From contig NZ_QDAH01000002.1 in the NCBI RefSeq assembly GCF_003075415.1, positions 124,001-188,000 on the forward strand: DNA of 64,000 bases, in the 5' to 3' direction. Of the stretch, positions 13,771 to 15,970 are shown one piece after another. Position 1 is the stretch's first letter. Each line of letters starts with the position of its first letter. Both the position numbers and the translations under genes were made by a program. The stretch is from Microvirga sp. KLBC 81. Lineage in GTDB: Bacteria > Pseudomonadota > Alphaproteobacteria > Rhizobiales > Beijerinckiaceae. The notes under the pieces were generated by a model. It was not told the origin of the DNA and made no database searches. It was given only the letters and a program-made list of their open reading frames with translations.

Positions 13771-14936
13771 GCGATCCCCCGCACGCGTGCCGCCGCATCG
13801 ATGAAGCCGCTTGCGGCCGCGAACATGGCGGGCTCGTCGAGCAGGAAGGCGTCATGCCCCTTGTCGCTCTCCACTTCCACGAAACCGACGGAAGCCGCAG
13901 CAGCGTTGAGCGCGTGCACGATGGCGCGCGAGTCCGATGTCGGGAACAGCCAGTCGGAGGTGAAAGAGATCACGCAAAAGCGCGTCGCCGAACCTTTGAA
14001 CGTTCTGGCGAGCGAGCCGCCATGCCCCGCCGCGAGATCGAAATAATCCATCGCGCGCGTCACATAGAGATAAGAATTGGCGTCGAAACGCTCGACGAAA
14101 GAGATGCCCTGGTAACGCAGGTAACTCTCGATCTGGAAATCGGCGTCGAAGGAGAAGGTCGGCGCGTTGCGGTCCTGGAAATTGCGGCCGAACTTCCGGT
14201 GCAGGGCCATCTCGGACAGATAGGTGATATGCGCGCCCATGCGGGCGACGGCGAGGCCCTTCGAGGGGCGCGTGCCCTCGAGCAGATAGCGCCCGCCCCG
14301 CCAGTCGGGATCGGCCATCACGGCTTGGCGGCCGACCTCGTGGAAGGCGATGTTCTGGGCCGAATGGCGCGCGGCCGTCGCGATGGGCAGCGCTGCGAAG
14401 ACGCGGTGAGAGTAGCTCGCCGCCCATTGCAGCACCTGCATGCCGCCCATGGAGCCGCCGATCACGCAGAACAGGGTTTCGATGCCGAGCCTGTCGATCA
14501 GGGCTGCCTGGGCGCGAACCATGTCGCGGATGGTCACCACCGGAAAGTTCAGGGCATAGGGCTGGCCGGTCACCGGATCGGTCGAGGCCGGGCCCGTGGT
14601 GCCCATGCAGCCGCCGATCACATTGGCGCAGATCACGAAGAATCGGTTGGTGTCTACCGGCTTGCCCGGGCCGACCATGGTCAGCCACCAGCCGGGCTTG
14701 CCCGTGACCGGATTGTCGTTCGCCACATGCTGGTCGCCGGTCAGCGCATGGCAGATCAGCACCGCGTTCGACTTATCGGCATTGAGGGTGCCGTAGGTCT
14801 GATAGGCGATCTGCCAGGGAGCCAGCGCCACCCCTGAGTCCATCATCAGAGGCTCATCCGCGCCAAAGCGCATGACCAGGCTCGACGGGTCGTCGGCTTG
14901 GCTTCGCGCTTCCAGGGAGAGAGGAGACGATGTCAT
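13767..14936 (-). CDS. metX: Homoserine O-acetyltransferase (MetX family)
   Basis: 389 residues, alpha/beta hydrolase fold. The nucleophile elbow is [13 protein letters not shown], the catalytic Asp lies in [11 protein letters not shown] and the His in [10 protein letters not shown]. It acylates homoserine as the first committed step to methionine; MetX enzymes paired with MetW may use acetyl- or succinyl-CoA and the sequence alone does not decide. It is the promoter-proximal gene of the metXW operon and has an unusually long upstream leader (see 15000-15327). Confidence 0.93.
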
Positions 14937-14999
14937 GGATTGGCAGCTGCGTTCGGTCTTCCGAACAAGCCGTAATTCGGATAGGTCCGGCCGTCAACG

Positions 15000-15327
15000 A
15001 ACATGAGGTCCGACGCTGTGCTTTCGGGCTCGGAGCGGTGGGTGCAGAATGTCAAAGAGCCGAGCGGAAGCATCCTCTGGGCTGGCGAGCCTTCCGAGGG
15101 TGAGGGTCGAGGGGTCGCGCGAGGAGCGGTCCGGCTCGATGTCTGATGGTAGCGTGGAACCCGACGGCTCCTCGCGCACGGCTTCTTTAGGCGGACACCG
15201 CAGCGGTCGCTCGGGACCTGCGGGCGGCCTCCTGCCGGTGGGCTGGCGTTCAGCCTCCTCCGCAGGACCGTGCCCCGGCTCCACAGTCACGACGCCTCGC
15301 GAGCGCGCCCCTCGCTGAGCCGGGACA
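15000..15327 (-). ncRNA. Candidate structured metX leader or small RNA
   Basis: The segment would be transcribed on the minus strand from the promoter at 15334-15362. Three strong stems follow in order: GAGCCGGG/CCCGGCTC (15317-15324 with 15274-15281), CCGCAGG/CCTGCGG (15260-15266 with 15217-15223), and an 11-base stem GCGCGAGGAGC/GCTCCTCGCGC (15117-15127 with 15167-15177). It does not match SAM-II, RNase P, SRP or tmRNA motifs that I know. It may be a cis-regulatory leader of metXW or an independent RNA. The 3' end is not defined. Confidence 0.35.
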
Positions 15328-15333
15328 AGACAC

Positions 15334-15362
15334 GATATAGCCGAGCTTAGGACAGAAGTCAA
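15334..15362 (-). promoter_or_regulatory. Housekeeping-type promoter directed at metX
   Basis: Minus strand TTGACT (15357-15362) and TATATC (15334-15339) with a 17-base spacer, close to the sigma-70 consensus. The predicted start is near 15327, about 390 bases before the metX ATG. Confidence 0.55.
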
Positions 15363-15397
15363 GAACGAACAGGGAACATTCGCCTATTGCCCTCGTG

Positions 15398-15540
15398 CCG
15401 TCATTCCGGGGCGCCGAAAGGCGAACCCGGGACCCATAAACATGACATTTCAAGGACGGACGATCAGCGGTGCGCCCTCTCTGCAACGTTGGCGGCTCTG
15501 GGTTCCGGGCTCGGCTCTAGGAGCCGCCCCGGAATGACGG
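15398..15540. repeat. 143-base element with perfect 16-base terminal inverted repeats
   Basis: CCGTCATTCCGGGGCG at 15398-15413 is matched exactly in inverted form at 15525-15540. The interior has no coding sequence. It resembles the REP/MITE-like palindromes dispersed in Methylobacteriaceae-type genomes and is related to the shorter copies at 15930, 27553, 41396 and 42349. Confidence 0.75.
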
Positions 15541-15558: not shown

Positions 15559-15846
15559 CTACATGTTCAGCGACGCGTAGAGATCTGACCAATCGGGGTT
15601 CATGTCCTCGATCAAACGGATCTTCCAATCGCGCCGCCATTTCTTAAGGCTCTCTTCGCGTGTGATGGCCTCGTCGATGCGTTCGTAGGTCTCATGCCAG
15701 ACGAGACGCGTCACGTCGTAAGCCGCTGAGAAGCCGGGGACGACGTTGGATTTGTGCTGCTCCACTCTGCGCGGCAGATCGTTCGTGACACCAAGATAAA
15801 GTGTGCCGTGGCGGCGGCTGGCCAGCAGGTAGACGTAGTATGTCAT
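15559..15846 (-). CDS. GIY-YIG domain nuclease family protein (small, UPF0213-like)
   Basis: 95 residues from the ATG at 15846. It begins MTYYVYLLASRRHGTLYLGV, i.e. the GIY-YIG motif in its YVY/YLG form, followed by the conserved Arg in DLPRRVEQHK and Glu in EESLKKWRRDWK. Family members of this size (YhbQ-like) are stand-alone putative nucleases, in some cases involved in DNA repair. Repeats flank it on both sides (15398-15540 and 15930-15970), and it interrupts the metX to chorismate mutase interval, so it may have arrived as an insertion. Confidence 0.85.
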   Translation of the reverse strand: MTYYVYLLASRRHGTLYLGVTNDLPRRVEQHKSNVVPGFSAAYDVTRLVWHETYERIDEAITREESLKKWRRDWKIRLIEDMNPDWSDLYASLNM

Positions 15847-15929
15847 CGCGCCATTCGAGCAGCTTCGGTTTGGCGGATTAAAGTCCTGCCGCCGATGGCC
15901 GATGTCAATCGACTGTGAAATGCTTCCCA

Positions 15930-15970
15930 CTGATCTTCCCGGGCGCCGAAGGCGAGCCCCGGAAGATCAG
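15930..15970. repeat. Short palindromic repeat upstream of chorismate mutase
   Basis: CTGATCTTCC (15930-15939) and GGAAGATCAG (15961-15970) form a perfect 10-base inverted repeat around a core (GGGCGCCGAAGGCGAGCCCC) that also occurs in the 15398-15540 element. It is 82 bases before the gene start. Confidence 0.65.

Follow-up and report, generated by a model that had tools for sequence, protein, structure and literature searches.

The window analyzed here is a 64,000-nt stretch of the Microvirga sp. KLBC 81 genome (GCF_003075415.1, NZ_QDAH01000002.1:124,001-188,000, forward strand); Microvirga, a genus of bacteria from soil and plants, is a member of Hyphomicrobiales. Its minus strand carries metX and metW, preceded by a promoter and a block with the features of a structured RNA (Table 1). 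The ORF that follows metX matches MetW (Pfam, 1.3e-90), and the metX ORF is recognized by Pfam only as an alpha/beta hydrolase fold; the name metX rests on this fold, on the metW neighbor and on the initial annotation of the locus. That annotation drew attention to the minus-strand promoter TTGACT-N17-TATATC, to strong stems in the RNA that would follow it and to the length of the leader, which it read as a sign of riboswitch-like or attenuation control of metX, with a separate small RNA as the alternative. The description holds: the promoter is present, the strong stems exist (P1 with eight pairs, a 3′ hairpin with 11) and fold as described, and approximately 390 bases lie between the start of transcription, predicted shortly 3′ of the -10, and metX. 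The promoter was not listed by the automated promoter scan: its -10 ends in C, where the rules of the scan require T. The window site scan found no terminator-like site near the element.

The region from 15377 to 15048 is one copy of a dispersed structured RNA element, the 3′ end of which lies some 110 nt upstream of the metX start. The initial annotation mentioned neither the LexA box over the -35 nor the genome-wide repetition of the block. Just upstream of the element are a palindromic repeat (GTCATTCCGGGGC...GCCCCGGAATGAC) and an ORF for a small GIY-YIG nuclease (window 15387-15540 and 15559-15930); ORFs related to the latter also adjoin elements at L016, L304, L307 and L371.

Table 1. Features of the metX locus, in window coordinates
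Feature	Position	Strand	Basis or remark
LexA (SOS) box GTTC-N7-GTTC	15377-15363	-	Sequence and exact presence in other copies; second half adjoins the -35
Promoter TTGACT-N17-TATATC	15362-15334	-	Seen in sequence; TTGACT 15362-15357, TATATC 15339-15334
Predicted structured RNA gene, copy of the dispersed element	15333-15048	-	Own-genome DNA matches and covariance model R1
P1 stem CCCGGCTC/GAGCCGGG, 8 pairs, around the invariant loop	15324-15317 with 15281-15274	-	Covariation
Near-invariant loop GAGGGGCGCGCTCGCGAGGCGTCG	15313-15290	-	Alignments A1 and A3
P2 stem-loop CGGTCC ... GGAGGCC	15269-15226	-	Covariation
P4 3′ hairpin GCGCGAGGAGC ... GCTCCTCGCGC, 11 pairs	15177-15117	-	Inverted repeat and covariation
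Pseudoknot strand CCCCTCG	15114-15108	-	Partner CGAGGGG 15314-15308; position-wise permutation test
boxA-like word GCTCTTTGACATT, 3′ end of element	15060-15048	-	13 bases identical in three rrn leaders of G041
metX-proximal block, TTGACG-N17-TACGGC and inverted repeat GTTCGG-AAGA-CCGAAC	14997-14951	-	Separate from the element
metX	14936-13767	-	ORF; start at 14936
metW	13770-13123	-	ORF after metX; MetW match (Pfam)

Results

A family of similar copies dispersed in Microvirga

A DNA search of the own genome gave 18 matching places, pieces included, with five copies other than that of the window full-length at 91-92% identity. Across 101 genomes (the own genome and relatives) a DNA match was present in 44, all of the same genus; in at least three of them (G004, G036 and G040) it is the metX-proximal block that matches best, rather than the element. 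To the 5′ module of 30 copies, promoter excluded, we fitted a covariance model (R1); E-values of this and our other covariance searches are rough, the calibration having been short. R1 recognizes 11 copies in the own genome, the window copy included, and between 1 and 34 copies in 40 of 48 Microvirga genomes; the remaining eight gave no match in a scan with stricter filters, by which weak matches may be lost. A scan of named genomes with the loop pattern returned at least 115 stretches, and among the 80 titled matches listed all are from Microvirga except one (L170), from Rhizobiales bacterium YIM 77505, with sequence in common with G122. M. guangxiensis and M. lupini are among the species with copies. 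Measured from P1 to the word CCCTCGA, 64 copies form two size classes of approximately 210 and 280 nt, with the whole RNA at roughly 280 or 350 nt. The second class (L007, L008, L014, L019, L020 and others) is distinguished by an additional module, some 65 bases long, that separates P2 from the 3′ module.

The copies are chromosomal. Every one of 143 copies listed for seven low-contig assemblies is found on the largest contig (C1), and for five multi-contig genomes the count is 125 of 125 on the largest contig, with a log10 P of -17.7 under placement by length. Copies in G016 are evenly spaced on the chromosome (CV 0.52; none of 5,000 random sets is as regular); even spacing is borderline in G041 (P 0.06) and was not found in the other five low-contig assemblies. 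On the chromosomes of G019 and G042 (C1 of each) the copies form two opposite-strand blocks, with one exception in G019, as if oriented by replication; this is not so in G016. In G041 and G035 the GC skew, sampled at 20 points per genome, was too weak for the origins to be located, and we do not claim a strand bias with respect to replication.

A comparison of copies within and between genomes reveals a marked difference. Mean identity is 0.914 within G041 (20 of 27 copies) and 0.916 within G035 (18 of 27 copies), and 0.748 between the two. Six G041/G035 pairs have orthologous neighbors, three of them on both sides, and at 0.71-0.78 identity they are no closer than other pairs; because shared neighbors bring no greater similarity, it follows that copies are homogenized within genomes or replaced at favored sites. 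Opposite orientations of the element are seen at shared sites. One G041 copy (L105) is unrelated to the others on both flanks, and two (L091 and L094) on the 3′ flank, which suggests that the unit extends from the LexA box to a point beyond the terminal hairpin. Most of the 20 G041 copies L087-L106 are embedded between REP-like palindromes (GATCACCGGCACA-GGCCGGTGATGACG).

The element is not tied to metX

Consistent co-orientation upstream of one gene or gene class, as expected of a cis-acting leader, was not found. Forty copies were fetched (20 from G041, 18 from G035 and two from G016), 39 of which have a callable downstream ORF; this lies on the same strand in 20 cases and on the opposite strand in 19, as judged by a simple ORF caller that, for 5 of the 40 copies, also called an ORF running across the element. 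At 30 Microvirga metX loci, with the element counted as present when R1 matches within 730 bases upstream (16 loci), it is co-oriented with metX in five (the window genome, G029, G034, G015 and G018), points away in 11 and is missing from 14.

Immediately before metX the sequence TTGACG-N16..19-TAC is present in all 30 loci, and an inverted repeat GTTCG..CGAAC in 29. We regard this proximal block as the likelier seat of metX control. It is possibly the metX promoter together with an operator or hairpin of a methionine regulator; because the -10 is poor, we do not insist on a promoter. No riboswitch was found near metX: four Rfam matches at relaxed E-values of 1.1-7.4 are not credible and none is a riboswitch. 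A leader peptide, encoded by a small ORF over the metX start, was also considered. By eye, its ATG is absent in L058, L062 and L079, and the ORF runs in frame into metX in L060 and L069; this candidate was therefore dropped in favor of a conserved DNA or RNA block.

Compensatory changes and a pseudoknot

Judged by energy, the fold of the leader is unexceptional (z -0.88), and 18 of 100 shuffled sequences do equally well. Alignment of copies is more informative. Compensatory base changes in the stems among relatives, which the initial annotation had named as a check, are present: of the 27 pairs in the 5′ module, 12 have changed at both positions (5 of 7 in P1 and 7 of 13 in P2). Paired cells amount to 94.3% in this module, compared with 84.8% in shuffles (none of 500 as high) and 39-56% with the partner strand slid; with two other genera added the figures are 96.0%, 89.8% (none of 500) and 45-58%, all to be read with the qualification that the structures tested were predicted from the same alignments, which favors them on cells paired, and that shuffles ignore relatedness. 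The 3′ hairpin (P4) has fewer compensatory pairs, 3 of 13 being changed on both sides; by eye, its stem differs in sequence in other genera yet remains paired. As befits a structured noncoding RNA, compensatory changes exceed both the shuffled and the slid controls.

The word CGAGGGG, which runs into the invariant loop, is complementary to CCCCTCG downstream of P4. At the positions flanking the GGG/CCC core, 75 of 100 are paired in 25 sequences, compared with 61.9 on permutation (1 of 5,000 permutations as high), with covariants such as GGAGGG/CCCTCC and GAAGGG/CCCTTC; the 25 sequences were hand-picked from eight lineages, at loci with a readable 3′ strand. There are exceptions: L028 fails at all four positions of the register and L368 at three. 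A test by duplex energy is weak (141 of 2,000 permutations as good); the position-wise test was designed after this result, and both tests ignore relatedness.

A LexA box over the promoter

GTTC-N7-GTTC is the LexA motif of alphaproteobacteria, according to the available parts of PMC3323433 and PMC9578287, and GAAC-N7-GAAC stands upstream of lexA in six of six genomes of the genus. An operator of this type appears to overlie the promoter of the element. Among the matches listed for named genomes, 107 of 114 copies fetched by loop sequence alone have the exact box, and in 93 of 114 the box is combined with a -35 and a -10-like word; for comparison, 32 of 4,600 random windows drawn from these loci contain the box. 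Three of the seven copies without a box (L170, L255 and L268) have upstream sequence of the YIM 77505 type. Of 82 distinct copies at other loci, 80 have the exact box. These comprise all 38 retrieved with R1, which contains no promoter, all 11 from metX loci, and 31 of the 33 obtained with a DNA query that itself contains the box. Copies are related, so that none of these counts represents independent events; the promoter spacer and flanks vary around the fixed box. The promoter of nearly all Microvirga copies thus looks like one under a putative SOS (LexA) switch.

Relatives outside Microvirga

With R1, 24 of 298 genomes of the family have a match: 19 are Microvirga, and five belong to two other genera, for which 36 matches are listed at E up to 0.1. 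None of 30 copies fetched from these two genera has the exact LexA box; most have TTGACA-type promoters. A broader model, R3, applied to 397 genomes of the order (E up to 0.01), gave matches in 10, namely the own genome and nine genomes from five further families. Four of the nine have at least 5-9 matches each; per-genome counts are lower bounds, since no more than 10 candidates were scored in any genome. The exact LexA box is absent from all 25 copies fetched from other families. A search of 385 genomes of the class, with strict filters and few genomes of the order included, found a match in the own genome only. Because relatives outside Microvirga are without the box, the RNA does not depend on SOS control, and the family is, on the sequences compared, older than its putative SOS control.

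Other words are found upstream of the non-Microvirga copies. TTCCTA/TAGGAA words surround the TTGAC promoter in L282, L283, L286-L288, L291, L293, L299, L351, L353, L355, L363, L369, L374, L377 and L379; TTATCCCCGCC-like or AATCCCCGCC words occur upstream in L352, L354, L356-L358, L362, L364, L368, L370, L375 and L376. By eye, these are perhaps different operators on one RNA.

Comparison with rRNA operons and known RNA families

The word G[CT]TCTTTGA occurs downstream of the element in 46 of 105 copies, compared with none of 105 in the upstream control, and is also found in rrn leaders of the genus. The window copy contains GCTCTTTGA, a putative NusB/S10 boxA as in rrn leaders. Like rRNA operons, the element is multicopy, alike within a genome and provided with a strong promoter, and its boxA-like word is shared with rrn leaders of G041 (Table 1); unlike them, it has a LexA box in Microvirga, and the boxA-like word stands at its 3′ end, in the 46 copies noted. 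Multiple copies together with boxA suggested an rRNA operon leader. This candidate was rejected: 12 rrn leaders from four genomes have only the boxA word in common with the element, and no rRNA was found at eight own-genome loci within up to 1.5 kb of flanking sequence.

The window contains no Rfam match above threshold, in agreement with the initial annotation, which had found the SAM-II pattern absent. None of 4,227 Rfam families matches over the element in the window or at eight own-genome loci, and the same is true of 10 loci of Microvirga and sister genera and of 12 loci of other families; near some copies the matches are to tmRNA and SRP RNA genes only. OLE, GOLLD, ROOL and HEARO are large structured bacterial RNAs, which the element resembles in size and complexity of fold; it differs from them in having no Rfam match, and to our knowledge its copy number, within-genome homogenization and SOS box have not been reported for any of them. 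The SAM-II riboswitch is described in the available part of PMC1273637 as lying upstream of methionine genes in alphaproteobacteria; the element does not match it and is not tied to methionine genes. A closer parallel is suhB RNA (RF00519). According to the same source, genomes contain several copies of it, all preceded by a putative promoter, and it was first noted upstream of a gene, of which it was later judged not to be a cis element. Neither RF00519 nor any other Rfam family reaches its gathering score here, and the element differs from suhB RNAs in its pseudoknot and LexA box; suhB RNAs have an intrinsic terminator, and none is visible here. Other multicopy small RNAs of Rhizobiales are described in the available part of PMC3927594. 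A literature search found nothing that names this RNA, most of the subscription literature lying outside its reach.

Discussion

The unit that emerges is a LexA box overlapping a housekeeping-type promoter, followed by a covarying, pseudoknotted RNA. We are confident that the block is an RNA gene and not a leader, a judgment made from sequence comparison. The initial annotation as a whole is partly supported: its alternative of a separate small RNA gains support from a multicopy element with covarying stems, and its proposal of riboswitch or attenuation control of metX is not borne out, given the 11 copies in the genome, the 19 of 39 downstream ORFs on the opposite strand and the co-orientation at 5 of 30 metX loci.

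On balance we favor the reading that the element encodes an SOS-derepressed structured RNA, produced from many genes in the manner of rRNA and acting in trans. LexA bound over the -35 would block RNA polymerase and keep the promoters off; DNA damage would derepress all copies together, and copy number would turn this into a large dose of one structured RNA. Such an RNA would work in trans by its fold, with the invariant loop and pseudoknot probably held by a protein. In the window genome and four sister species, where the copy beside metX is directed toward that gene, SOS read-through into metXW would be possible but secondary. A fuller version of this reading we offer tentatively: that the element is a new class of pseudoknotted RNA, patchy in Hyphomicrobiales and made rRNA-style from many homogenized chromosomal genes, which in Microvirga is LexA-controlled, is released in a burst by damage and serves in trans in the survival of DNA damage, for example at the nucleoid, in replication or at the ribosome.

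A mobile element would likewise be compatible with the patchy occurrence and with the opposite orientations at shared sites, and the main alternative is accordingly a non-autonomous selfish or mobile element whose SOS control serves its own spread and whose RNA is part of the mobility (a guide, a template or intron-like), with a protein supplied in trans. Its copies are dispersed and intergenic; 8 of 48 Microvirga genomes have no match, and in the order 10 of 397 genomes have one. Mobile elements are commonly under LexA control, and GIY-YIG-type ORFs stand beside five element loci in four genomes (Pfam check on the ORF of the window). Several observations speak against it. The terminal inverted repeats of an insertion sequence or MITE, of 10 bases or more, are missing from the window copy, L105, L091 and L094. 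An all-against-all comparison of 488 flank ORFs, in which the larger groups are an ORF running through the element itself and ABC ATPases, revealed no partner or mobility gene that recurs across genomes except the GIY-YIG group, and no recurring transposase group. No copy lies off the largest contig in the five multi-contig genomes, the window copy has no match in plasmid or phage collections, and the loop pattern has none in viral contigs (a looser pattern gave a single match, in coding DNA). The compensatory changes indicate that the structure is selected in the RNA, though a mobile RNA could show them too. Taken together these data leave a mobile element as a rather unlikely explanation, if a serious one.

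Two further explanations fare considerably worse. The LexA box is intact in nearly all copies, and up to 34 extra LexA sites might act as decoys that buffer or sharpen the SOS response, with the RNA as a by-product; this leaves both the covarying structure and the box-less relatives without explanation, and we consider it very improbable. The last is a cis-acting metX leader, whether riboswitch or attenuator. Co-orientation at five of the 30 metX loci and an element that ends so shortly before metX in the window speak for it, but elsewhere the downstream neighbor is on the opposite strand about half the time, the element points away at 11 of the 16 metX loci that have it, metX has a proximal block of its own in 30 of 30 loci, and there is no riboswitch match. 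We regard such a leader as scarcely credible.

If the RNA is expressed, it would represent a large structured bacterial RNA family that Rfam 15 does not include, with as many as 34 genes in one genome and, across most of a genus, a connection to the SOS response. We consider it new as an RNA family; multicopy bacterial small RNAs are already known. We know of no SOS-controlled RNA gene that is multicopy or homogenized in this way. The case also counsels caution: long leaders ought not to be read as riboswitches before a check for other copies.

A minor observation concerns the neighborhood of the element: in two species an SRP RNA gene lies shortly downstream on the same strand (L003, 1158-1254; L028, 2074-2170).
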